Part shown: piece by piece, positions 4,757 through 23,217 of the stretch
Layout of the letters: the number at the start of each line of letters is the position of its first letter
Position numbering within the stretch: the stretch's first letter is position 1
DNA from: a virus
IMG/VR virus record: IMGVR_UViG_3300022752_006144
Span: 1 to 23,566 of that record
Length of the DNA: 23,566 nt
Strand: one strand, 5' to 3'
Made by a program: the position numbers and the translations under genes
The notes under the pieces: model-generated
What the model saw: only the letters and a program-made list of their open reading frames with translations
What the model was told of the DNA's origin: nothing
Database searches by the model: none

Positions 4757-5686
4757 TCAGGCAGCGGGGGTGATGTTGAAGAGACGGCCGGCGGCGCGGG
4801 GCTGCAGCACGGCAAAGCCCACGTACCAATCCACGCGGGTGCGGAACACCGGGGCATCGGGCACCTCGCCCAGATCCCGTACCGAGATGCCGTAGCGGCC
4901 CTGGAACGGGCCCTGCAGGCCGGTCACGCCCTGATCACCAAAGGTGCAGCAGTAGATCGAGCTGGTGCCGCCCGCCTCGTCGTAGCCCATCACCTCGACG
5001 CCCTGGGCATCGCGGTCGACGGTGAGGATGTCGCAGTCCTGGTAGCGGTGCACCGTCATCCCGTAGGAGTTGGTGCTGGTCTGGTACACACCACCGCCAA
5101 TGGAGGCGCGGGCGAGGGCATTGAGCTGGCGGCGCATCGCCTTGCTCATCACCAGCACCTTGCTGCCGCCGTAGGCATTCACCGAATCGATCAGCTCATC
5201 GAGCCGATCAAAGTTCAGCGGTGCACCGGGGATGGCACCTGAGGCGTTGTTGATCGCCATCGGGTTGCCGGGCGGCAGCCGCTTGCTCAAGCCGTCAAAG
5301 GCGCGGGGATTGCTGGCGGTGTCGCCGTTGATCACGGTCGCCTCCAGCGTCAACCGCATCGAGCGCACCTTCATCTCGATCTGGCTGGCGCGGGCCTCCG
5401 GGCCCATCAGGTCCACGATCGAGCGGTCCACATCCACGTCACCGCCAAAGAGGTGCACCGCTTCTGCGCGCTGGTCCACCACGCCGTAGCTCTGGGTGTA
5501 GCCCTCGTTGACGGCGCGGAAGCCCACCGAGGGAAGTTCCTGCTCGGCGGAATAGAAGAGGCCGCTGCCGGCGATGTTCATGAACGGCAGCCGGGCGAGC
5601 AGTTCGCCCTCCGAGAAGGTCTTGAGCACAGCGAGGTGCTCAAGCCGGTGCTCGTATTTGGCTGCCTCGATCAGGGTGAGGCCCAT
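4757..5686 (-). CDS. Phage major capsid protein, 309 aa
   Basis: The product resembles the HK97-fold phage capsid family that opens with LTLIEAAKYEHRLEHLAVLK. That family then carries a LPFMNIAGSGLFYS segment and the conserved core GFRAVNEGYTQSYGVVDQ leading into VHLFGGDVDVDRSIVD (about residues 53-91). The family builds the icosahedral shell from many copies. The remainder has the expected mix of a long helix (MRRQLNALARASIG) and beta strands, and 309 aa is a normal length. No N-terminal delta domain or protease site is obvious, which fits use of a separate scaffold-like protein. The ATG at 5686 lacks a clear Shine-Dalgarno and is preceded by GC-rich hairpins (5695-5709). Before the IS insertion the gene lay about 84 bp downstream of the 134-aa gene at 7139-7543; the IS now separates them. 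Confidence 0.85.
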   Translation of the reverse strand: MGLTLIEAAKYEHRLEHLAVLKTFSEGELLARLPFMNIAGSGLFYSAEQELPSVGFRAVNEGYTQSYGVVDQRAEAVHLFGGDVDVDRSIVDLMGPEARASQIEMKVRSMRLTLEATVINGDTASNPRAFDGLSKRLPPGNPMAINNASGAIPGAPLNFDRLDELIDSVNAYGGSKVLVMSKAMRRQLNALARASIGGGVYQTSTNSYGMTVHRYQDCDILTVDRDAQGVEVMGYDEAGGTSSIYCCTFGDQGVTGLQGPFQGRYGISVRDLGEVPDAPVFRTRVDWYVGFAVLQPRAAGRLFNITPAA

Positions 5687-5709: not shown

Positions 5710-5781
5710 GTGATGTCAGGGGCTATTGCCGAGCAGCTGCGCTGAGCGTTTTGGGCCGTGTGCCGTCCCCTCAGAGTTGCT

Positions 5782-5785: not shown

Positions 5786-7149
5786 GAGGCTGCTGAAAAA
5801 AACGAGAAAAGCCCAGCCTGTTGGTCGATTCGCGCTCGTTTTCGCGCCGCGTCAATCAGGTTGACCGCCAGCAAGGGGCTGGCCCTCTGCTTTGAGGACC
5901 TGAAAGCGTGGTTCGGAGCCTGGTTGGCGATGCGTTTGCCCCCCTGGCGGCAGCTTTCATGCCATCACCGCCTGTGCCCTGAGCAGGTTGGTGATGCGAA
6001 TCAGGTTGTAGGCCAACACGTGCAGACGGAACACGGCCCCAACCTTTGACCTGCCTCTGGCCTTGAGCTGCCGCAGGCCAGCGGCCTGCTTGATCCAACC
6101 AAACACCTGCTCGATCCGCTTTCTGGTGTGGATCGATTGGGCATATCCCTCGTGGCGGACAGTCCGGCCGTCAATGGCTGAGCTGCGGCGGGTCTGGATG
6201 TTCTGAGCCACATGGGGCGTGATGCCGCTGATGCGCAGGTCGGCCACGAAATCCCTGGTGTCGTAGCCCTTGTCGGCACCCAGGGTTTTCTGGTGAGCAC
6301 CCTTGAGCGAACGGGCCATCCGCAGGGCTGAATCCCGCTCAGCGGTGCCGCTGGCCTGGGTGACCTCACTGGCAACCACCAGCCCGTTGCGGTTCTCCAT
6401 GACGCAGTGGCCCATGAAACTCAGAAAGGCACCAACACCAGGAGCCTTCTTGAACAGCCGGGCCTCGCTATCGCTGCTGGAACGATGGGTCTGGTTGGAG
6501 AGCAGCAGGCCGCGGAAGTCACCCCTGGCTCGCTTCTTGCCAGCTGAGGTGCTGCCGCCAAACCCCTTGCCACCGCTGGGTGGTGGTGGATCGTCGTCGA
6601 GGCCATCGATCCTCTCCAGTGAGCTGTGGGAGGCCCAAGCCCGCAGCAGGGTGCCATCCACTGAGAAATGCTCGGAACTGAGCAGTGGCTTGACCTCGGG
6701 TGTTTCCAGCAGCAGCTCCAGGAACTTGGCCATGAGGTCCTCATTGAGCAGCCGGTCACGGTTTTTCGTGAACGTGGTCGGGTGCCAAACGGGATCGTCC
6801 GGGTTGAGCCCCACAAACCAGCGGAACAGCAGGTTGTAGTCCAGCTGCTCCATCAGCATCCGCTCGGAGCTAATGGCGTAGATCGCCTGCAGCAATAGGG
6901 CCAACAGCAACTGCTCTGGCGGAATTGAGGGCCTGCCGCTCTCAGGGTAGAGCTTGCAGAAGGCGGGGTTGAGCCGATCGAGGGCTTGATCGGCCAACCG
7001 CCGCACCTGCCGCAGGGGATGACTGGCCGGGATGCGGTCTTCTGTGGAGATGTACGAGAACAGGGGACCGGTGCGTTCCTGCTGGCCGCGCATCCACTTA
7101 ATGCCGTTGGCCCATTCTCCCGCAGCTGGCTGGCTTTTTCAGCAGCCTC
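5786..7149 (-). mobile_element. IS5/IS1182-like insertion sequence, 1364 bp, complete
   Basis: The element is bounded by perfect 15-bp inverted repeats (GAGGCTGCTGAAAAA at 5786-5800 and its complement at 7135-7149) and flanked by CTAG duplications. It carries one transposase gene on the - strand with an intact frame. Downstream of the transposase, a hairpin with arms 5799-5806 and 5835-5842 ends in a T run in the - direction and may terminate its transcript. Intact ends, intact frame and an undamaged target duplication suggest recent insertion. The insertion separates the 134-aa gene from the capsid gene. Confidence 0.9.
5957..7093 (-). CDS. IS5/IS1182-like DDE transposase, 378 aa
   Basis: The enzyme catalyses cut-and-paste transposition of its IS. 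The N-terminal part matches the InsH/DUF772 domain (LFSYISTEDRIPASHPLRQVRRL, then GRPSIPPEQLLLALLLQA and LLFRWFVGLNPDD). The DDE catalytic residues are visible as Asp in HFSVDGTLLRAW, Asp in TLGADKGYD and Glu in KRIEQVFGWIK near the C-terminus. A charged linker rich in Asp, Pro and Gly separates the first Asp from the rest of the RNase H-like fold. The length is normal for the family and no frameshift is seen, so it is probably active. The ATG at 7093 lies 42 bases inside the right inverted repeat. Confidence 0.93.
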   Translation of the reverse strand: MRGQQERTGPLFSYISTEDRIPASHPLRQVRRLADQALDRLNPAFCKLYPESGRPSIPPEQLLLALLLQAIYAISSERMLMEQLDYNLLFRWFVGLNPDDPVWHPTTFTKNRDRLLNEDLMAKFLELLLETPEVKPLLSSEHFSVDGTLLRAWASHSSLERIDGLDDDPPPPSGGKGFGGSTSAGKKRARGDFRGLLLSNQTHRSSSDSEARLFKKAPGVGAFLSFMGHCVMENRNGLVVASEVTQASGTAERDSALRMARSLKGAHQKTLGADKGYDTRDFVADLRISGITPHVAQNIQTRRSSAIDGRTVRHEGYAQSIHTRKRIEQVFGWIKQAAGLRQLKARGRSKVGAVFRLHVLAYNLIRITNLLRAQAVMA

Positions 7150-7543: not shown

Positions 7544-7634
7544 CGGCCGACTTGGATGACCTGCTCCACAGTCTGCGCCGAATGCGGCTGCCTGGATTGG
7601 CGAAACGGCAACAGCAGAGGACTGCCCTGCTGCC

Positions 7635-10173: not shown

Positions 10174-11064
10174 TCAGCTGCGCGGGCTGCGGCCATTGAG
10201 GGCAAAGCCAGCCCGGTAGAGCTCGCTGGCGCTCATCGCCTGCGGATTGATCACCTCGCCAAAACCGCTGGCGCCGATACCGCTGGCTGCAGTGCCCGGG
10301 GGCATGGCGCCCGTGCCCATGGCACCGCGCTGCTGGAACAAGAAGCCATACACGGGGTGGATGCGCAGCTGATCGAGGTAGTCGGCCGTGGTCATCGGCC
10401 GGCCGTCATCACCCAGCAGGGGCTGGCCCTGAGCGTCCAACGGTTCGAGAGCATCGCTGCCGTCCTTGCTGCTGCCAAGCCGGAAGCAGTCCCAGAGCAT
10501 CGAGCGGAACACCTGAAAGAAGGTGCCGCGCCCATCGCCGCCGGTGCGCCCTTCCGCTTCTGAAAAGGCCCGCTCCAGCAGCCGCTCTTTGCGCAGCTCC
10601 TGCACCCGCTCATGGGCGGCGTCGCGCTCCGCCGAGACAGCTGCCACCCGTTTGGCGGCGGCCTCCTCCATCTGGCGTTCCCGTAGCTCCAGCTGCTGCT
10701 CGAGGTGCTGCTTTTGGCGTTCGGCCTCCTGCAGACGGGCGTACTCCTCGGGGTTGATCTCCGAGAAGCGGGTCAGCTGCTGCCGCAGCCCCCGCAGTTC
10801 TTTCTCGAGGTTGTTGCTGCGGCGGCGCTCGGCCTTGAGGGCTTCGCTGAGGCCAGCCCCATTGGGGCCAGCCCCAATGGGGCCATCGCCGCCGGATCCC
10901 TGGCTGGATTCATTGGCAGTGGTTGCAGCATCCGAGCCAGTGCTGTGCTCCGCCTGAATGCTGTCCTGCTCAGTGGTCTCCGGTTCACGGAGGTCCAGCA
11001 AGTCGTTGCCAGCACCCGCGTTTCGGGTCGTGCTCGTGTTGGGGGTTGCGGAAGCAGTGGCCAT
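10174..11064 (-). CDS. Scaffold-like coiled-coil head protein, 296 aa
   Basis: The protein has the architecture of phage scaffolding proteins. A low-complexity N-terminal region rich in Ser, Thr, Gly and Glu (about 1-70) is followed by a long charged coiled coil (about 75-165, including ERRRSNNLEKELRGLRQQL and EEAAAKRVAAVSAERD). A globular C-terminal part follows (FFQVFRSMLWDCF, DYLDQLRIHPVYGFLFQ). Scaffolding proteins direct capsid assembly and are lost from the mature head. The order portal, scaffold, capsid supports this, although about 4.2 kb of other genes now separates it from the capsid gene. A 28-base palindrome (10856-10883) inside the gene encodes two GPxGA-type repeats in the disordered region. 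The ATG at 11064 is the first Met. Confidence 0.75.
   Translation of the reverse strand: MATASATPNTSTTRNAGAGNDLLDLREPETTEQDSIQAEHSTGSDAATTANESSQGSGGDGPIGAGPNGAGLSEALKAERRRSNNLEKELRGLRQQLTRFSEINPEEYARLQEAERQKQHLEQQLELRERQMEEAAAKRVAAVSAERDAAHERVQELRKERLLERAFSEAEGRTGGDGRGTFFQVFRSMLWDCFRLGSSKDGSDALEPLDAQGQPLLGDDGRPMTTADYLDQLRIHPVYGFLFQQRGAMGTGAMPPGTAASGIGASGFGEVINPQAMSASELYRAGFALNGRSPRS
10856..10883. repeat. 28-base palindrome inside the scaffold-like gene
   Basis: Two 13-base arms (GCCCCATTGGGGC and its complement) flank a 2-base centre. The same stretch can be read as about two copies of a 15-base tandem unit. It encodes GPIGA and GPNGA in the linker before the coiled coil. A second element of the same size and design lies in the large terminase gene at 16218-16245. 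Confidence 0.75.
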
Positions 11065-11136
11065 GACCCGTCTCGGCTGTCAGTGGGATGGCAGCCCATC
11101 ACGGCGCTGCCTGTTCCCTGTTGCCGAGCGGCACGT

Positions 11137-12209: not shown

Positions 12210-12737
12210 TCAACCCCGCAGCATCGGCGTTGCGCCCAGCTGCCCTGCGGCCTGGGCGGTGAACTGCACCCAGCTGCTGAGCCCAGGCAGCAGCAACAGC
12301 AGCTGGTCGGCGTAGCGGCGCCGCCGGCGTAGCAGTCCCATCGCGGGCGAGCTGGGGTTGGCGTAGGTGGTTTCGCTCTCCTCGCGCAGGAGCGCCGTGT
12401 CGTAGGCGATCACATCTGCTTTCTGCAGGGGTGCATCACCAGCCGCGGCAACCGAGCCGGCGATCGGCCCCGAGTGGCTGCGCTTCTGGATCGCCTGCTC
12501 CTGCTCGCAGCCACCGGCCAGCAGCTGTTGATCGATCAGGGCCACCGCATCCAGTAGGGCACGGGCGCTCAGCACCCCGGCCGGGTGTTGGCGCAGTAAA
12601 TCCGCCATCGCCCGGCCGATGGCATCCAGGCAGGGAACGGTGGCGGGCAGCGCCAGACACTGGCGGATGGCCTCCTGGTCTTGCGGTTGCCACGTCGCGC
12701 CACCTGGCGCGCTGGGCACTTTGCTGCTGATGGTCAT
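12210..12737 (-). CDS. Hypothetical protein coupled to the portal gene, 175 aa
   Basis: The ATG at 12737 overlaps the portal stop codon (ATGA), which decides the start over a longer in-frame version reaching 12776. The protein appears largely helical, with a central pair of helices (LDAIGRAMADLLRQHP and ARALLDAVALIDQQLL). A basic, then very hydrophobic C-terminal part follows (GLLRRRRRYADQLLLLLPG). The segment between is rich in Ala, Gly and Ser. No domain is recognised. Tight coupling to the portal suggests a role in the portal vertex, as an adaptor or a portal chaperone. The hydrophobic run is short and preceded by Arg residues, so a single membrane anchor is possible but not favoured. Confidence 0.6.
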   Translation of the reverse strand: MTISSKVPSAPGGATWQPQDQEAIRQCLALPATVPCLDAIGRAMADLLRQHPAGVLSARALLDAVALIDQQLLAGGCEQEQAIQKRSHSGPIAGSVAAAGDAPLQKADVIAYDTALLREESETTYANPSSPAMGLLRRRRRYADQLLLLLPGLSSWVQFTAQAAGQLGATPMLRG

Positions 12738-14149
12738 GCAGAAGCCGGTGCCACACCGGCCAGATCCCCCAGCCATTGCCGCAGGGCCTGCTCGCTCACG
12801 ATGCCGCGCTCATGCAGCTGCAGCATTTCGGCCACGGTGGGTTGAGGCTTGGGCGCGGGGGCCAGCGGGCTGATTTCCACCAGCAACGCCGGGCCCTCCT
12901 GCACGGGAACTGGTTCTCCGGTGATTGCGCACCAGTGCTGCAGCAGAGAGGAGAACATCGAGGCCTTCTGGATCGCCTGGCTCTGCAACAGCGCATAGGC
13001 CTGCGAGGCCGCAAGCGAGATCTCGGTGGCGGTGCGCGGTGCCCCCTGGGCGCCGGATGGGATCAGGGCATCACGGCGCATGCCCTGGTCTAGGGATTCC
13101 AGCCAGGCGCGGTGCTCGGCCAAGGAGCGGGCCTGGATCTCCACGAACTGGAAGCTGGCCCCATCGGGCAGATCGATCACGGTGTTGGGGCCGAGCACCA
13201 CCGGCTCGCTGGTGCCACTGCCCATGGGGCCGACGACCCCTGTGCGCACACCCACCGGCAGGGCGGTTCGGTACAGCAGCTCCTGGTAGTCGCTCTGGCA
13301 CCGGAAGTGGTTGAGGTACTGATGCGCCAGGCCCAGATGCGGCAGGTCGCCCTCGCCAAAAGCGGCGCCATCACTGGCGTACCAGATCAGGGGCAGCTGG
13401 CCGATGCCGCGGTAGTGCTGCAACCCCGTGCGTTGCGGTCGCCAGCCAGATGGGGCCTGCGGATCGGCCACGAGCTCGAAGGTCTCAATACCCATGCCGT
13501 CGCCATCGAGCGCAACGGATCCGTAGAGCCAGGGATGCTGTGGTCGATCCGGGTCCAGGGGCTGGTCCTGGGCCTTGGGGTTAGGCAGCCGAAAGCTGAC
13601 CGCATCCGGCAGGGACTGGGGGGCGGGCAAGTGCCAGTTCAGGACGTCGCGCCGTTCCAGCAAGGCCAGCCGTGGCAATGACAGCCGATCACCACGGCGC
13701 AAGGCCTGCTGCCTGTCCCCTTCGCTGGGCCAGAGGTGCTGCGGTGGCAGCACGCCAATCAGTGCTGCACCATCGCGGAGCACCAGCACGTCGGCGCGCT
13801 CGAGGAACACACCCAGGTCGGTGCCGCGTCCATCAACGTCGCTGATCACCGCCTGCAGCGAGGCCGGCAGCTCACGCCAGTGGCTGGAGGCGAGCATCCC
13901 CGCGAAGGTTCGTAGGGCATCGCGGAAGAACCCGGAGGGCAAGGCCGCCTCAACCCGGCGGAGGTAGGCGGTCTCGGGTTCGCGATCGCCGCGGGGTAGG
14001 TAGTGCTCCTTGCGGCCGGCGAGGAGGTCCCAGCAGTGCTGGATCAGATCTAGCCGGGGAAGAAGATCCAGTAAGACTCGATGCCTGCGTAGAGGCAAGC
14101 CCAAGCCGCACTCCTGAGCCCGGTCGCTGTTCGTGATCTCAGCCGGCAA
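12734..14149 (-). CDS. Phage portal protein, DUF4055-like, 471 aa
   Basis: The product matches the DUF4055 portal group. An early segment HYLPRGDREPETAYLRRVEAAL is followed by SGFFRDALRTFAGML (about residues 50-90). A central beta-rich clip/wing region follows, then the stem/crown part with GMRRDALIPSGAQGAPRTATEISL and a helical C-terminus. Portals form a dodecameric ring at one capsid vertex, through which the terminase pumps DNA. At 471 aa it is in the usual range. No ATG precedes the conserved region. The start used here is a TTG at 14149, and an in-frame stop lies 16 codons upstream with no ATG or GTG between, so a TTG start, or loss of an original start, is implied. It is coupled to the next gene by an ATGA overlap. 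Confidence 0.88.
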   Translation of the reverse strand: MPAEITNSDRAQECGLGLPLRRHRVLLDLLPRLDLIQHCWDLLAGRKEHYLPRGDREPETAYLRRVEAALPSGFFRDALRTFAGMLASSHWRELPASLQAVISDVDGRGTDLGVFLERADVLVLRDGAALIGVLPPQHLWPSEGDRQQALRRGDRLSLPRLALLERRDVLNWHLPAPQSLPDAVSFRLPNPKAQDQPLDPDRPQHPWLYGSVALDGDGMGIETFELVADPQAPSGWRPQRTGLQHYRGIGQLPLIWYASDGAAFGEGDLPHLGLAHQYLNHFRCQSDYQELLYRTALPVGVRTGVVGPMGSGTSEPVVLGPNTVIDLPDGASFQFVEIQARSLAEHRAWLESLDQGMRRDALIPSGAQGAPRTATEISLAASQAYALLQSQAIQKASMFSSLLQHWCAITGEPVPVQEGPALLVEISPLAPAPKPQPTVAEMLQLHERGIVSEQALRQWLGDLAGVAPASA

Positions 14150-14188
14150 GACGGGATAACAGCTCTTCCGCTGTTGCCGAGCCGATTC

Positions 14189-14620
14189 TTAATCCTTCAA
14201 GCCCGCTGCCTGACGCGCGTTGACAGGGCCTTGAACGTCCACGACAGCTGGATGGCGTGGTCGTCCCAGAACCCAGCACGGCACGTAGTCGGGCTGCCCC
14301 TGGAGACAGGCCTCGTACTGGGGGTAGTCGTCAGACATGACAAACCCCTCGCATGCTTCGTACACCCAAAGACGAGGGAAACGTCCTTGCCGGGCATCAG
14401 CAATCAGTACATCAACAATGGCCTCAGCATTAGGTGTTTCCAGGAAACAAAAATCTGACGCAAAAGGCTTGACTAGAGAGAGGGGAATGGCTGCGAAATA
14501 GACATGTAGATCTCCCTGGATTGCCAGCCCAAAAAGAGCGTCGAAGACTGGGTCCTTGGGCGGCTTAAATGGATTGCCAGAATCCTGCGGATCCAGATTT
14601 ATCGGGTTGATGCTTGGCAT
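14189..14620 (-). CDS. Conserved-looking hypothetical protein of lower GC, 143 aa
   Basis: The product is not assigned to a named family. It looks like a compact globular protein, with DLHVYFAAIPLSLVKPFASDF, then FCFLETPNAEAIVDVLIADARQG and FVMSDDYPQYEACLQGQPDY in distinct blocks. It has no signal peptide or membrane span. Its DNA is visibly less GC-rich than the genes on either side, mainly from 14400 to 14620, which suggests separate acquisition. It sits between the sigma factor and portal genes, 30 bases after the sigma stop and 39 bases before the portal start. It may be a moron-type gene rather than a structural one. No Shine-Dalgarno is evident upstream of the ATG at 14620. Confidence 0.6.
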   Translation of the reverse strand: MPSINPINLDPQDSGNPFKPPKDPVFDALFGLAIQGDLHVYFAAIPLSLVKPFASDFCFLETPNAEAIVDVLIADARQGRFPRLWVYEACEGFVMSDDYPQYEACLQGQPDYVPCWVLGRPRHPAVVDVQGPVNARQAAGLKD

Positions 14621-14650: not shown

Positions 14651-15175
14651 TCAAGCACCATCTTGTTCATGGGCGGTCATTGCAACCACTCGCACCGAGC
14701 ATGCAGTGGTGATCTCGGCCCAGCGCCGAGGAGTGAGGCCTAGTTGCTGAGCCACATCAGTTGGTGCCGCTCCCTGCCGCAGCAGCTTCTGCCCGCGTGC
14801 GTGCAGCTCCCGCCAGCGGCCAGGTACCGAAATCAGGAATCCCTTGTCGCGCAAGTAGTGGGTGATCTCGCCGTTCACAAACGGCCTGGCGTAGGCGATG
14901 AAGTGATTAGGGCTGCGGCCGGGGTGCTGGGTGTTGTACCGACGCGAGGCCTTGATCAGCCCGATCGCCGCCAGCTGCTCCAGATCTTCTTTGGGATGAC
15001 CGGTGCGGCGGGCGTAGTTGGCTGCCACTTTGGCGGCGAAAGGGAGGTGCTCCACTACCAAGGCATCAGCAGCGGCATGGGGTGAGCGCTCAGGACCTCG
15101 CGAAAGCCCTGATGCCGTCACGCGAGCAGTGGCCTGCTGGGGCTTGGGGCGGTGGACGTGTAGTGGGGTGCTCAT
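14651..15175 (-). CDS. Short sigma-70-family factor with regions 2 and 3 only, 174 aa
   Basis: Residues about 40-110 match sigma region 2 of the SigB/SigF/SigG type: VVEHLPFAAKVAANYARR, then EDLEQLAAIGLIKASRRY and NHFIAYARPFVNGEITHYLRDKG. Region 3 follows with SVPGRWRELHARGQKLL and a helix-turn-helix-like block (APTDVAQQLGLTPRRWAEI). The chain ends there, so region 4, which contacts the -35 element, is absent. Region 2 binds the core polymerase and melts the -10 element, so the protein may direct RNA polymerase to element promoters, possibly late genes. It starts 20 bases after the terminase stop and precedes the portal cluster. A truncated host-derived sigma or a regulator that only binds core enzyme is possible. 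The Arg/Pro-rich N-terminal 35 residues are probably flexible. Confidence 0.82.
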   Translation of the reverse strand: MSTPLHVHRPKPQQATARVTASGLSRGPERSPHAAADALVVEHLPFAAKVAANYARRTGHPKEDLEQLAAIGLIKASRRYNTQHPGRSPNHFIAYARPFVNGEITHYLRDKGFLISVPGRWRELHARGQKLLRQGAAPTDVAQQLGLTPRRWAEITTACSVRVVAMTAHEQDGA

Positions 15176-15195: not shown

Positions 15196-16845
15196 TCAGC
15201 GGGAGAACAGCAGCGGCCGGGGCGTGGCCTTGCCCTGGCTGCGCCAGTGCTGGCTCTGCAGCCAGATCACGCCCTGGCAGAAGGCATCCACCAGGTCGTC
15301 GTGGGCCCCGTTGGGAAAACCCAGCAACTCGCTGATCAGGGCCTCGTTGCCGCTGCGAAAAGCCAGCTGGCCGGCCTCTAGCAGCGGGGCCACGGCATGG
15401 GCGCGGCTCACCTTGCTACCGGTGGGCCGCACTGCAATCAGCCCTGGAATCTGCCGCCGCAGCAGCTGGCAGACGGCCGGGCCATTGGCGGCGTCTTCGA
15501 TCAGCACCGCATCAGGACTCAAGTCCTGCCCCAGTGACGCCAGTGTCTGGCCGAGGAATTTGACCACCCCCGGCAGGTCGAGGCGGTGGTGCTGGCTCCA
15601 GATCACCTCGATCCGATGGACAACGCCTTCTTGCGGTTCGGCCGGTGAGCGCACCCCGGCGGCACTGGGGTGGAGCTGCTCACCCCGTGCCTTGGCCTGG
15701 CCAGCCGGGTGGCGGGCCTCCTGATCCGGCAGCAGGCCGAGAAGGCAGAAGCCGCAGTAGTCGTTCTCCGCTCCCCCCTTGAAGCTCAGGTCGCAGCTCA
15801 GCACCACCGCCGCAAACGCCCTTTGCGCCGCCCGGCCGTCTGGGGCAGGGGTGCCCGCTGTGGTGCCGATCCAGGCGCGTTGGAACAGCAGACCCTCCGC
15901 CGGTGAGGGCCGCTGCTGATACAGCGCGTTCCACCAGTAACTGCCGGCGCGGATGCGGATCTGCTCCAGCTCCCCCAGAGGGAACCGCTGCGGGCAGAGC
16001 GGCTCACCGGGCTGGCGCCAGTCCGGCTCGATGGTGCAGGTGTTCGGGAACTTGATCTGCTGCTGGGGCGGTTCAGCAATGGCCGGCAGGTTCAGCACCT
16101 GCCAGCGCTGCGGAGCCTCGCCGCTCTCCTGCTCCAGCAACCAGCCGATCAGGTCCTCCTGGTGCCAGCGGGTGAGTACGACGACCTGCGCAGCACCTGC
16201 AATACCCCCTCGTAAAGGCCCCTCTGGGGCCGGCCCCAGAGGGGCGGGTTCGGCGCGGGTGAGCCAGACGGATTGGAACCACTCGATCAGCTTCTGGCGT
16301 TGGCTGGCGGAGTTGGCGTCTTCCGGACCCTTGTAGGGGTCATCGATGATCCCCAGCGCGTAGCCCTTGCCGGTAAACGGCCCGCGCACACCAGCGGCGA
16401 TGCAACCGCCTCGATCAGGGGTGAGCCAGTTGCCCACGGCAGTGGAGTCCTTTGAGAGGGGGTGGCCGACCGCGCGGTAGTAGTGCCGTGCCTCACGGCT
16501 ATGGGCATAGGCCAGCTCGGCCGAATAGGAGGCGATGGCGCAGAAGCGCGTGGGGTACCGGCTCACCCAGTAGGCGGGGAACAGCTTGGAGACCAGCAGC
16601 GATTTGCCCAGCCGCGGGGGGCAGCAGACGATCAGGCGGTTGAGCTCGCCATCGGCCACGCGCTGCAGCAGGGCGATCAGGCGTTCGGCCCAGGTGTGGA
16701 AGGCGTAGCCGGGATAAGCGGCCACGATGAAGTCACGGAACAGCAGGCCTTGGCGGCTAATTGACGCCCGGTCGGGATCGGGAACACCCAGCAGGCCCCC
16801 GTCAGCCCACAGGTCAGACGCCGGATCCAGTAGCAGACCCTCCAT
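15196..16845 (-). CDS. terL: Terminase large subunit, 549 aa
   Basis: This is the packaging motor. The ATPase half has a Walker A-like CCPPRLGKS (residues 74-82) and a Walker B ending in acidic residues (ALGIIDDP, 163-170). The nuclease half has the three acidic clusters of the RNase H-like fold: CDLSFKGG (Asp352), VLIEDAANG (Glu450/Asp451) and GAHDDLVDAF (Asp516/Asp517). The ATG at 16845 overlaps the small-terminase stop by one base (TGATG), which decides the start; the open frame reaching further upstream is a shadow of the small-terminase gene. A 28-base palindrome (16218-16245) encodes a short AP-x-GP repeat (about residues 200-210) between the ATPase core and the next conserved strand (VVVLTRWHQEDL). 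Length and motif order are normal, so the enzyme is probably functional. Confidence 0.93.
   Translation of the reverse strand: MEGLLLDPASDLWADGGLLGVPDPDRASISRQGLLFRDFIVAAYPGYAFHTWAERLIALLQRVADGELNRLIVCCPPRLGKSLLVSKLFPAYWVSRYPTRFCAIASYSAELAYAHSREARHYYRAVGHPLSKDSTAVGNWLTPDRGGCIAAGVRGPFTGKGYALGIIDDPYKGPEDANSASQRQKLIEWFQSVWLTRAEPAPLGPAPEGPLRGGIAGAAQVVVLTRWHQEDLIGWLLEQESGEAPQRWQVLNLPAIAEPPQQQIKFPNTCTIEPDWRQPGEPLCPQRFPLGELEQIRIRAGSYWWNALYQQRPSPAEGLLFQRAWIGTTAGTPAPDGRAAQRAFAAVVLSCDLSFKGGAENDYCGFCLLGLLPDQEARHPAGQAKARGEQLHPSAAGVRSPAEPQEGVVHRIEVIWSQHHRLDLPGVVKFLGQTLASLGQDLSPDAVLIEDAANGPAVCQLLRRQIPGLIAVRPTGSKVSRAHAVAPLLEAGQLAFRSGNEALISELLGFPNGAHDDLVDAFCQGVIWLQSQHWRSQGKATPRPLLFSR
16218..16245. repeat. 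28-base perfect palindrome inside the terminase gene
   Basis: The sequence equals its own reverse complement over all 28 bases, with the pattern GCCCC TCT GGGGC repeated in mirror form around CCGG. It encodes the AP-x-GP repeat. It shares size, framework and reading frame with 10856-10883, but its variable bases differ in a pairing-preserving manner. Confidence 0.8.
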
Positions 16846-17372
16846 CAGCTTTTGCTCTCCGGCGGTTTGAGCGGAGCGCGCAGCAGTCCACCGATCTCGG
16901 CGATCACCCGGAAGGCACCCACTGCAGCTGAGAACTGCTCGGCATCCATGGCGCGGCGGGCGCAGTCGTTGAGGGCAAAGATCTGCTCGGCCTGGTGCCG
17001 GCGGCGGTCGGAGATCAGCTCCTCCACCATGCGCATCCGCGCCAGGTCGAGATAGCGATTGATCGTCTTGACGTTGCTCACCCCCCAGCTTTCGCCAGCT
17101 TTTGCCCTGATCTCCAGCAGCGGCAGCCGCTGAGCGATCCACAGCTGGGCCTCAGCAATCCGTCGCTCGACCTCTCCAGCGGTGGCCCTGGGCGTCTTGA
17201 CGTGGTGAGGAGCGCGCCGCGGTGGGTTGGTCTGACTGATCGGCCGGCTTGGGTCCACCGCTACCGCCACCGGCTCCCAGAGAGCGTCTCCGTCGGCGTC
17301 CTGCTGATCGGGTGCGGAGCGCAGCTCCTCCACCGGATCGGCAGCGGCCTGGTGGTGGGCGCGAGGGGGCAT
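16845..17372 (-). CDS. terS: Terminase small subunit, probable, 175 aa
   Basis: The gene immediately precedes and overlaps the large-terminase gene. After a Pro/Asp/Arg-rich flexible N-terminus (about 1-60), the protein has a helix-turn-helix-like region (AEAQLWIAQRLPLLEIRAK, then ESWGVSNVKTINRYLDLAR). Helices suited to oligomerisation follow (EQIFALNDCARRAMDAEQ and AAVGAFRVIAEIGGLL), ending in LKPPESKS, which would be the part that contacts the large subunit. Small terminases recognise the packaging site and load the motor. Assignment rests on position, size and the HTH pattern, since this subunit is poorly conserved. Confidence 0.78.
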   Translation of the reverse strand: MPPRAHHQAAADPVEELRSAPDQQDADGDALWEPVAVAVDPSRPISQTNPPRRAPHHVKTPRATAGEVERRIAEAQLWIAQRLPLLEIRAKAGESWGVSNVKTINRYLDLARMRMVEELISDRRRHQAEQIFALNDCARRAMDAEQFSAAVGAFRVIAEIGGLLRAPLKPPESKS

Positions 17373-18844: not shown

Positions 18845-21457
18845 TTACAGCACGCTCAGGGGAATGGCGACGGCACGGCTGACCATGCCGGCGCCACAGA
18901 AACGCACAGGTCCGGCCCGTTGCGCACCGCTGAGGCGCAGCAGCACCACTGACCAGCTGTTCTGCCAGGCGGTATCGGCCAGGAAGTGCTCGATGGCCTT
19001 GGCGGTGTTGCTCACCAGCAGCCGGTCCTGATCCACCCGCAGGCCATGGCGGCCCATGGTCTGGGCCGCCAGGCCAGGGCTCACGTCGATGCAGCTGCTG
19101 TGGCATGCCGCCAGCTCCACCAGTTCACCGATGGTGCGGGTGACGGGCTTGTCGTCGGTCTCCACCCGCACCTGCCGCTGCAGGATCGTCTGAATGCAGC
19201 GGGCCTCGTCGGGAACCTCGGTGCTCTGGCTGTAGCTGTCCCAGTTGTGGACCTCAATGCACTCCTCGGCCTCCTTCTGGCTGGGAACTGCATCGCTGAG
19301 CAGCGACCAGGCGCCGGCCATCAAGGTCCCGTACTGATCCCCCAGGCGCTGGGAGTCGAAGTGGCGGGCGGCAGCCGCCGAGAAAACCACAACCGACTGA
19401 CGGATCACCGGGATCAGCGACACCGTCCGAGCGATCAAGCGCCGCGCCAGCTGCGGGGTGATGTAGCGCTCGAGATCCCGATCGAGGCTCTGCCAGTGGG
19501 CTTCGCGTTCCTCCTGATTCATCTCGGTGGGGCTGCGCAAGGTGAGCTGCGCGAAGCGGCTCTTGTCAGCTCCCTGCTTGAGGGCGGTGGCGATCGAGGA
19601 CATCAAGAACATCGAGCGCACCCGGTAGCGGCTCACATCGCCGCTGGGGGAACCCTTGAGCATCTCGGCACTGCTCTCGCTGCTGGCCACCCGCGCCAGC
19701 GAGAGGATCGCCTGCATCCGCTGCTGGTCGCCCTTCTCGTTGCTCTCCGCCTCATCGAAGACCACCGGCACGGCATCGGAGCAAATGGTCTGACGCAGGC
19801 CGGCCTCTGTCGTGGCGCCCGACACCGCCAGGCGCAGGTCACCGAGCAGCGGCACCACAAAGCGATCGAGGATCTGGCTCTTCCCGGAGCCGGCACCGGC
19901 GGTGAGCCAGAGGTGGGGCCGCCAGCGCAGGGCTCCGCAGATCGGAGCCAGCACCACCCAGCCCTGCAGCAGGGTGCCGGAGGCCGGCACCTCCCAGCGA
20001 AAACGGTTGGCGATGCTGACGATCACCGCCGCTTCCTCCACGGTCAGGGGTTTGACGCCGCAGGGCCCCTCCTGGCGTTCGAGGCGCTGGTAGATGTGCC
20101 GCGAGCGGAATGGCTTGGTGATCGGGTGCTCCCCCTCGGGGGTGATCAGGCGATCGCCGAGGTGCAGCACGGTGCGGCCCTCATCCCACCAGGCCCCGCG
20201 GCCACGGATGCGTTCCACCGCGAAGATCCCCATCGCGGCGGAGCTCTTGTGCAGATCGCTGGCCGCCGCCGGCCAGTTCACCCCGGTGCGGCTGGGGTAG
20301 AGGCTCTCCCAGTACTCCAGTGGTGCCAGGGCGACGAGGTGAGTCGCGGTGTGGCAGCCGCGGGGCAGCCGGATCACCTGACCGGTGCTGGAAGGTTGGT
20401 AGAAGTTCGCGTCGGCGTCGTAGCCCAGGCAGAGGAAGGGCGCTGCCGGCCTGGGGGCTGCAGCACCCGCCGGCGGGGGAGGAGGCCCATCGCCACCCGC
20501 CTCTGGCGGGGTCCATGGCTGGGCTGCTTTCGCCAGTTGGCGTGCGGCCTGCCGGGGCGTCCAGTCGGCATCGGCCAGGTCCCAGCCCTGGGGCAGATCC
20601 GCCGGCAGGGCCACCAGTTGCAGCTGGCAGTCAAGGGGATGCAGCAGAGCGGCCAGGCTCTCCATGGCTTCCACTCCGGCGGCATCGGCATCGGGCCAGA
20701 GCGTCACCGAGCGGCCGGCGAGCGGTGTCCAGTCCGCCTTGGCGATCGCCTTCGATCCGTTGGGCCAGGTCAGCACCGCGTGCTGCGGGAACAGGCGGGC
20801 AGCTGCATCGGCGGTGCCCTCCCCTTCCACCACCAGCACCGGAGCCTCGGGGCGCCTGTGCAAATCCGGCAGCCCATAGAGCGGCCGGGGTGCGGGCCAG
20901 TCGCAGGTGAAGGCATCGCGGCGGCTGGGGCGATGCCAGTCCCCATCGAGCCAGACCCGATGCAGGAAGGCTTTGGCGCCGCTGCGCAGCCGGATCCGCT
21001 GGATCCAGAACAGCACCTCTCCGGCGCCATTGCGGTAGGCCCACTGGGCGGTGGCGCCGCGGTTCAACGGCGGCGGCGGCGCATCGGCAGGGGGCTTCTC
21101 GGGCATGCGCCAGGGCTTGCCGTTTCGGCTGGTGGCACTGCCGGCACGTGGGTCCTGCTGATCAGGCACCAGGCCAAGGAAGGCCTCCACCTGCCGGGCG
21201 GCCTCCACAAAGCTCCAGCCCTGCCGGCGCATCAGCAAGTCAATGCCGGAGCCGGCACCACCGCGCTGGTCCTTGCCGCCGCACTGGTTGCAGAACCAGG
21301 AGCCGCTGCCGTCCTTGTCGTCGAAGCGGTAGCGATCGGTTCCGCCGCAGAGCGGGCAGGACTGATGACGATCGCTCAGCTCCGCGTCACTCAGCCCTGC
21401 CAGGGCAGCAAGGATCTCCGGCCAGCGGCCTCGGGCCGCAGCAATGGCATCGGCCAT
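18845..21457 (-). CDS. Primase-ATPase/helicase fusion, 870 aa
   Basis: The N-terminus is a zinc-ribbon primase domain (Cys34, Cys37, Cys56, Cys59, with SCPLCGGTDRYRFDDKDG). A TOPRIM-like primase region follows, with VLVVEGEGTADA (Glu211 region) and LWPDADAAG (253-261). After a Pro-rich linker (about 315-340) comes an ATPase with Walker A TAGAGSGKS (519-527) and Walker B VPVVFDEAESNE. Zn-primase/helicase fusions of this kind start and drive phage or plasmid-type replication. The ATG at 21457 was chosen because the longer frame would overlap the gene at 21468-21671, and because the zinc ribbon begins soon after. A GGTGAG lies 9 bases upstream. The C-terminal 300 residues are not assigned. It is downstream of a repressor-like gene on the same strand. 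Confidence 0.88.
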   Translation of the reverse strand: MADAIAAARGRWPEILAALAGLSDAELSDRHQSCPLCGGTDRYRFDDKDGSGSWFCNQCGGKDQRGGAGSGIDLLMRRQGWSFVEAARQVEAFLGLVPDQQDPRAGSATSRNGKPWRMPEKPPADAPPPPLNRGATAQWAYRNGAGEVLFWIQRIRLRSGAKAFLHRVWLDGDWHRPSRRDAFTCDWPAPRPLYGLPDLHRRPEAPVLVVEGEGTADAAARLFPQHAVLTWPNGSKAIAKADWTPLAGRSVTLWPDADAAGVEAMESLAALLHPLDCQLQLVALPADLPQGWDLADADWTPRQAARQLAKAAQPWTPPEAGGDGPPPPPAGAAAPRPAAPFLCLGYDADANFYQPSSTGQVIRLPRGCHTATHLVALAPLEYWESLYPSRTGVNWPAAASDLHKSSAAMGIFAVERIRGRGAWWDEGRTVLHLGDRLITPEGEHPITKPFRSRHIYQRLERQEGPCGVKPLTVEEAAVIVSIANRFRWEVPASGTLLQGWVVLAPICGALRWRPHLWLTAGAGSGKSQILDRFVVPLLGDLRLAVSGATTEAGLRQTICSDAVPVVFDEAESNEKGDQQRMQAILSLARVASSESSAEMLKGSPSGDVSRYRVRSMFLMSSIATALKQGADKSRFAQLTLRSPTEMNQEEREAHWQSLDRDLERYITPQLARRLIARTVSLIPVIRQSVVVFSAAAARHFDSQRLGDQYGTLMAGAWSLLSDAVPSQKEAEECIEVHNWDSYSQSTEVPDEARCIQTILQRQVRVETDDKPVTRTIGELVELAACHSSCIDVSPGLAAQTMGRHGLRVDQDRLLVSNTAKAIEHFLADTAWQNSWSVVLLRLSGAQRAGPVRFCGAGMVSRAVAIPLSVL

Positions 21458-21467
21458 GGGATGTCGC

Positions 21468-21671
21468 TCACCATCCCTGGCTGGCAGGTGCCTGGTTGCC
21501 CGTAGAGCCGCGATCCGGCGTGGGCACCAGGGCCTCACGGTGAATCACCGCGTCGAGCACCTGGCGCAGGGCGGCTGAGCGGCTCAGGGAGCCATGGCGA
21601 CGCCGGGCATCCAGCCAGGCCAGCTGCTCTTGGGTGATCGAGACACTCACCGGCAGGGCGTAGTCGGACAT
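21468..21671 (-). CDS. Ribbon-helix-helix repressor-like protein, 67 aa
   Basis: The N-terminal half fits the CopG/Arc-type fold. A beta strand LPVSVSITQEQLAWLD leads into a helix, a turn with SLSRSAALRQ, and a second helix QVLDAVIHRE. RHH dimers insert the paired strand in the major groove and commonly repress their own operon. The C-terminal 20 residues (Pro/Gly/Ser-rich) look unstructured. The gene ends 11 bases before the primase start and is divergent from the helicase gene, so it could control both transcripts through the intervening 106 bases. An antitoxin role is possible but no toxin gene is adjacent. Confidence 0.75.
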   Translation of the reverse strand: MSDYALPVSVSITQEQLAWLDARRRHGSLSRSAALRQVLDAVIHREALVPTPDRGSTGNQAPASQGW

Positions 21672-21777
21672 GGGAACTCTGCTCGCGAACTACAGCCTAA
21701 TACCGTGGGCCAGCTCTCGCTAGGCTAAGCCAAAGAAGGCCAGTGGCTAGCTCCTGTCCTGATCGCCTGTGATCCTG
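21672..21777. promoter_or_regulatory. Divergent promoter region between repressor-like and helicase genes
   Basis: The two transcription units start back to back here. GCCTA at 21695-21699 and TAGGC at 21721-21725 form an inverted repeat with a 21-base spacer. TATTAG on the - strand near 21700 is a possible -10 element. These are weak patterns, and the region is called mainly from gene orientation. Confidence 0.5.
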
Positions 21778-23196: not shown

Positions 23197-23217
23197 ACCT
23201 GCCCGGCAAGAGGAAGC

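Follow-up and report, generated by a model that had tools for sequence, protein, structure and literature searches.

A terL-adjacent sigma factor without region 4 and a putative single-block late promoter motif in a virus family integrated in freshwater picocyanobacteria

What use might a virus have for a sigma factor that stops short of region 4, and which of its genes would such a protein serve? The question is raised by a gene in a virus record of 23,566 nucleotides (23.6 kb; IMG/VR IMGVR_UViG_3300022752_006144), the whole of which is called the window here and which is a fragment in comparison with relatives that reach 40 kb and beyond. The first-pass annotation of this DNA described a sigma factor with regions 2 and 3 of the SigB/SigF type that ends before region 4 and lies in a packaging operon between terminase and portal. 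It proposed that a protein reading mainly the -10 side could give the element a promoter class of its own, or hijack the host polymerase in the presence of a helper phage. The gene, which we call mini sigma, and its best-matched part are located as follows:

14651-15175, minus strand: mini sigma factor, ORF with ATG start, 174 aa, regions 2 and 3, no region 4 (profile matches, family alignment, predicted structure; adjacent to terL in 60+ related loci)
14840-15061, minus strand: sigma region 2, match to Pfam Sigma70_r2 (30.0 bits in the six-frame search)

Residues 39-112 of the protein match Pfam Sigma70_r2 (PF04542) with 29.7 bits (cut-off 24 bits); this is the only Pfam family matched, with no region-4 family among the Pfam matches, and in a six-frame search of the whole window region 2 was found once and Sigma70_r4 (PF04545, PF08281) not at all. 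The best NCBIfam match is SigF (PRK07408), of which positions 29-159 of 258 align with residues 36-163; the alignment covers regions 2 and 3 and ends there, and of both the SigF and the SigB/F/G models only these two regions are covered. Sequence matches in the PDB comprise S. aureus SigB, SigF, RpoH and FliA, while the PHROG matches (phrog_36098, 351 and 21612) are all named merely "RNA polymerase sigma factor". An AlphaFold model built from 16 sequences comprises four region 2 helices (residues 32-110) and a three-helix region 3 (119-160), with a mean pLDDT of 75, values of 84-95 for most of residues 31-160, and disordered termini. A Foldseek search with this model placed sigma32, SigB, SigA and FliA in RNA polymerase structures at the top, with only one match below E = 0.001. 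Region 3.2 and region 4 are missing. The core-binding signature of region 2.2, EDLxQxxxxGLIKA, whose loss would have spoken against a functional sigma factor, has been retained: EDLEQLAAIGLIKA lines up with EDLVQVGMVGLIGA of SigB, and E63, D64, L65, E66, Q67 and G72 are invariant across the mini-sigma family, as is a further block, H106-Y107-L108-R109-D110-K111-G112-F113. Judged by region 2, the 2.2 signature and region 3, the protein is of the group 3 (SigF/SigB) type of the sigma-70 family, from which it departs in the missing region 4; Pfam, NCBIfam, the six-frame searches and AlphaFold/Foldseek agree on the domain content that had been read from the sequence at first.

Absence of region 4 could also mean that mini sigma is a decayed, truncated remnant of SigF, a reading to which we assign next to no probability. 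More than 60 related loci, on viral contigs and in Cyanobium and Synechococcus chromosomes, encode the same short protein directly 3' of terL, with conserved sequence and open frames (an internal stop, TGA, is reported for a single copy), and the members of the family share their end point just past the region 3 helix-turn-helix. The scans gave 54 loci in genomes, of which about 47 belong to close picocyanobacterial relatives (Cyanobium, Synechococcus), and 19 viral loci. A truncated pseudogene was ruled out, all relatives being equally short; a sigma factor with region 4 is encoded in them only by a separate second gene. The carriers are a virus family integrated in freshwater picocyanobacteria. 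One genome, that of Cyanobium sp. Cruz-8D1 (G008, locus L036), contains about ten mini-sigma copies, which indicates many related elements in one host.

The surroundings of mini sigma in the window are made up of the following genes:

21468-21671, minus strand: 67 aa protein labelled RHH (a label only, with no HMM behind the name), first gene of the operon that ends in mini sigma, no late motif upstream (synteny, motif scan)
18845-21457, minus strand: primase, early operon, without the late motif (profile matches, motif scan)
16845-17372, minus strand: putative terminase small subunit, terS (position and conservation; weak phrog_34910)
15196-16845, minus strand: terminase large subunit, terL, directly upstream of mini sigma and in the same direction (phrog_38, 290 bits)
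14189-14620, minus strand: 143 aa ORF in the variable interval between sigma and portal, present in just two other loci (locus comparison)
12734-14149, minus strand: portal protein (DUF4055), predicted mini-sigma target (domain and PHROG profile matches)
10174-11064, minus strand: head scaffolding protein, predicted mini-sigma target (phrog_206)
4757-5686, minus strand: major capsid protein, predicted mini-sigma target (Pfam and PHROG profile matches, phrog_212)

Mini sigma is the last gene of an early operon with the order 67 aa protein, primase, nuclease, p127, terS, terL, sigma; downstream follow a variable interval, portal, p175, p187, scaffold, major capsid protein and fibres, and this order is constant in the relatives wherever the extent of the contig shows it. 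The proposed place between terminase and portal can be refined: mini sigma directly follows terL, and it is separated from portal by the variable interval with its cargo. This interval measures 505 bp in the window and up to 7.1 kb in relatives. In a set of them (loci L007, L023, L060, L013, L004, L055, L012 and L090) it spans 0.5-7 kb and carries defence-like genes, mostly on the opposite strand (AriA-like, GmrSD/HEC-06, HEC-01, Shedu SduA, FRG (PDC-S15), NsnA-like, TmtA-like and HamB-like helicase); eight of ten sampled cargo proteins match defence models, some of them partially, and the interval looks like a defence-gene hotspot adjoining the sigma gene. Between the 67 aa gene and a helicase gene lies a divergent early region (21672-21768) with repeated CTAGC / TTAGGCT-like sites, possibly operators, and without the late motif described below. 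Upstream of the capsid promoter motif, a 378 aa transposase-like gene (5957-7093) separates the C39 gene from the capsid gene; the relative G009 has none at this position. In another element, G012 (L091:5931-19631), no tail tube, tape-measure or baseplate match was found among about 15 scanned proteins of the structural region, which has collagen-like fibres only; this element also encodes an endolysin, an AAA ATPase and a subtilase, and it may be a podovirus-like phage or a tail-less satellite.

A search for a -10-like motif shared by the element's genes had been suggested together with the promoter-class idea. Such a motif exists and is confined to late genes; its consensus is (C/T)GGCAA(T/C/G)AG, mostly 25-70 nt before the gene, and in the window it occurs at the following sites:

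14171-14179, minus strand: CGGCAACAG copy of the -10-like late promoter motif, 30 nt before portal (motif scan)
11118-11126, minus strand: CGGCAACAG copy of the late promoter motif, 62 nt before scaffold (motif scan; 32 of 35 loci)
5723-5731, minus strand: late promoter motif in the form CGGCAATAG, 45 nt before the gene for the major capsid protein (motif scan; 15 of 15 loci)
7606-7614, plus strand: CGGCAACAG copy of the late promoter motif, 29 nt before a gene (248 aa) that is similar to the C39-like portion of the endolysin found in relatives (motif scan; 7 of 12 loci)

A scan of eleven elements found the motif, in the orientation of the gene, before portal, scaffold, capsid, fibre, structural and lysis genes. 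The counts above, like those for the portal (26 of 44), refer to 120-nt upstream windows after removal of duplicate elements, and they are not independent events, the loci being related to one another. Upstream of the seven early genes the motif was found in none of 272 cases (67 aa protein 22, primase 19, nuclease 36, p127 37, terS 49, terL 51, sigma 58), and on the opposite strand of the upstream windows it is virtually absent (about 0). Its distance from the gene is 61-70 nt for scaffold, 43-52 nt for capsid and mostly 29-34 nt for portal; 14-18 of the 44 portal genes are without the motif at the called start, and gene p175 has it in 8 of 42 loci. Because the motif was initially noticed by eye before portal and capsid genes, only the scaffold, fibre and lysis sites are independent. 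Within single elements, sites 20-75 nt before genes exceed chance (binomial p from 1e-3 to 3e-7), while total counts are only about 1.5 to 3 times the third-order Markov expectation, and therefore position, not number, is the strong signal. Host genomes contain YGGCAATAGC 4 to 19 times each, so it is not specific to the element, though dense in it. A motif-like CGGCAAGAG at 23204-23217, 14 nt before gene p116 and overlapping its ribosome-binding site, recurs in 9 of 13 loci and may be a chance match or a promoter.

In a gene-class-balanced profile the invariant columns of the motif carry 1.6-2.4 bits, and no column in the 50 nt upstream exceeds 0.26 bits, i.e. there is no -35 block; downstream there is some information, with G at +14, which may reflect the start region or the kinship of the loci. 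A single block without -35 partner is just what a sigma factor without region 4 should need, and a late-gene-confined motif of this kind bears out the idea of a -10-side sigma factor with its own promoter class.

Related sigma factors are found in the cyanosiphoviruses P-SS2, S-CBS2 (GU936714; L109) and S-CRES1 (OQ587939; L111). These group 3 proteins are 30-34% identical to mini sigma over the core and, like it, are encoded directly 3' of terL and have no Pfam region 4 match; they differ in a longer C-terminal tail (206-244 aa). By sequence and place, mini sigma belongs with them. In S-CBS2 and S-CRES1 a block GG(C/A)ANNCTA, which differs from GGCAANAG of the freshwater elements, stands about 30 nt before many genes: S-CBS2 has 25 sites (4.7 expected from a Markov model), 21 of them within 80 nt upstream of genes, and S-CRES1 has 19 (6.0 expected), 16 of them upstream of genes. 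The block came from a k-mer search of the very genomes that supplied these counts. Another form, GG(C/T)AANA, was considered as the cyanosiphovirus block and discarded as not enriched. P-SS2 has 3 GG(C/A)ANNCTA sites in the 49 kb examined, fewer than the 3.5 expected; the P-SS2 paper (PMC2784084) reports the sigma factor, and we found no motif of this kind there.

Could the late motif be the binding site of some other late activator, unrelated to mini sigma? We regard this as quite improbable: the motif core GGCAA resembles the -12 box of SigF, GGTAA, the geometry is that of a single -10-like element, and the core GG(C/A)A recurs in marine phages that likewise have a terL-adjacent sigma factor.

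Another candidate is the product of the second sigma gene (sigB), a protein of about 208 aa encoded at the far end of complete relatives (L089:3883-4509; also L091:4992-5621 and L094:4607-5233). Regions 2 and 4 are present in it (Pfam region 4 matches reach about 35 bits), region 3 is not; in coordinates of the SigF model it comprises region 2 plus 162-252, while mini sigma comprises 29-159. The parts that the two proteins have lost are complementary. Judged by synteny with G009, the gene should lie outside the window, beyond its left end. The zero count in the sigB row of the motif scan (0 of 39) refers to about nine true sigB genes plus cross-hits to mini sigma, not to 39 sigB genes. That the late motif is read by this second sigma factor, leaving mini sigma a different role, seems improbable, although the second factor is likewise SigF-related and was found in the complete elements inspected (G009, G012, G010, G005C36, G005C12, G006, G008C32 and G002). 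Its region 4 is at odds with a motif that has no -35 partner. Moreover, S-CBS2 and S-CRES1 combine a related motif and a mini-sigma relative with a second sigma factor that is RpoD-type or unassigned, no sigB having been noticed there in searches that were not sigB-specific. Mini sigma and the late motifs persist where sigB has decayed to a remnant (G011) or is broken (SynAce01), in elements that may be decaying altogether. The first base of the motif also tracks the clades of mini sigma, being C in clade A (all genes examined) and T, rarely A and once C elsewhere; sigB identities between and within the clades overlap, with no parallel split. The link between motif and clade may merely reflect co-inheritance with the late genes. 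Both this link and the persistence of the motif beside a decayed sigB carry little weight, given the joint inheritance of late genes and sigma and the possible decay of the elements concerned.

A split sigma factor with a region-4-only partner was considered and rejected, the candidate in G011 being the sigB remnant, from which region 2 is gone. A related proposal, a variant of the explanation that we prefer and not exclusive with it, is that mini sigma works only with a flap-holding, region-4-like partner, as T4 gp55 does with gp33. We consider this rather unlikely. Mini sigma is without regions 3.2 and 4, and full activity of T4 late transcription depends on gp33 and the clamp (PMC7892883), but gp55 alone supports basal transcription (PMC7892883), the window holds no region-4 family match, and the neighbouring gene 14189-14620 is not conserved.

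Region 2 by itself can bind core polymerase, and mini sigma might accordingly act mainly by sequestering the host core enzyme and shutting off host transcription. An inhibitor would need neither the conserved region 3 helix-turn-helix nor a matching promoter motif, and we hold this role to be highly improbable.

Our preferred explanation is that mini sigma, a descendant of a group-3 SigF-type sigma factor, is the late-transcription sigma of an integrated cyanobacterial virus, acting in the manner of T4 gp55 and phiEco32 gp36; we consider it likely, and the short sigma factor is very probably the switch for virion production. It would be produced from the end of the early operon, which is most likely read first and has no late motif (a host-type promoter for this operon is our guess), and would bind host core RNA polymerase via region 2. 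Its regions 2 and 3 would then read one extended -10-type block, (C/T)GGCAA(T)AG(C), and open the promoter, no -35 box being needed because region 4 is absent. In this way mini sigma would turn on separate late units, i.e. portal, scaffold, major capsid, fibre and lysis genes; with a promoter for each unit, neither the cargo between sigma and portal nor the transposase-like gene need block late expression. The suggested hijacking of host polymerase with a helper phage found no support: the motif stands before capsid, portal and lysis genes of the element itself, and we saw no sign of a helper in anything examined. We also lean slightly towards a broader proposal, namely that a SigF-derived, region-4-less late sigma factor encoded after terL is a common late switch of freshwater prophages and marine cyanosiphoviruses, with lineage-specific one-block promoters (GGCAANAG or GG(C/A)ANNCTA) derived from the SigF -12 box.

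Late-gene regulation in cyanobacterial temperate viruses has hitherto been guessed merely from the presence of sigma genes, and a literature search of open-licence papers found no description of the motif. The present analysis offers a testable late-promoter code for cyanobacterial temperate viruses, cultured phages included, and a motif usable for annotating late genes in uncultured viruses. It also adds to the cases in which single-element promoters accompany the loss of region 4, this one apparently of separate derivation, and so informs the minimal requirements of a sigma factor.

Among known systems, cyanobacterial SigF recognizes a -12 box GGTAA and a -32 box TAGGC (PMC2758279); it has region 4, whereas mini sigma lacks region 4 and its motif lacks a -32 box. 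T4 gp55 is a homologue of sigma region 2 without region 4, and its late promoters consist of a single -10-like element with no -35 (PMC7892883). Mini sigma is alike in both respects, in the second by sequence only, but it retains a SigF-type region 3 where gp55 has a helix-loop-helix, its motif is GGCAATAG-like, unlike that of gp55, and it has no recognised partner, whereas gp33 and the sliding clamp cooperate with gp55. The phiEco32 gp36 protein, which has no homology to region 4, serves single-element middle and late promoters with the consensus tAATGTAtA, and the missing -35 element has been tied to the missing region 4 (PMC8948821). Mini sigma shares with it the lack of region 4 and the single-element promoters, but differs in consensus, host and genome; a tblastn search with mini sigma gave no sign of a sequence relation, with neither T4-like nor phiEco32-like phages among its matches. 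By analogy, then, mini sigma resembles gp55 and gp36 in its proposed mechanism, and we place it in neither family.
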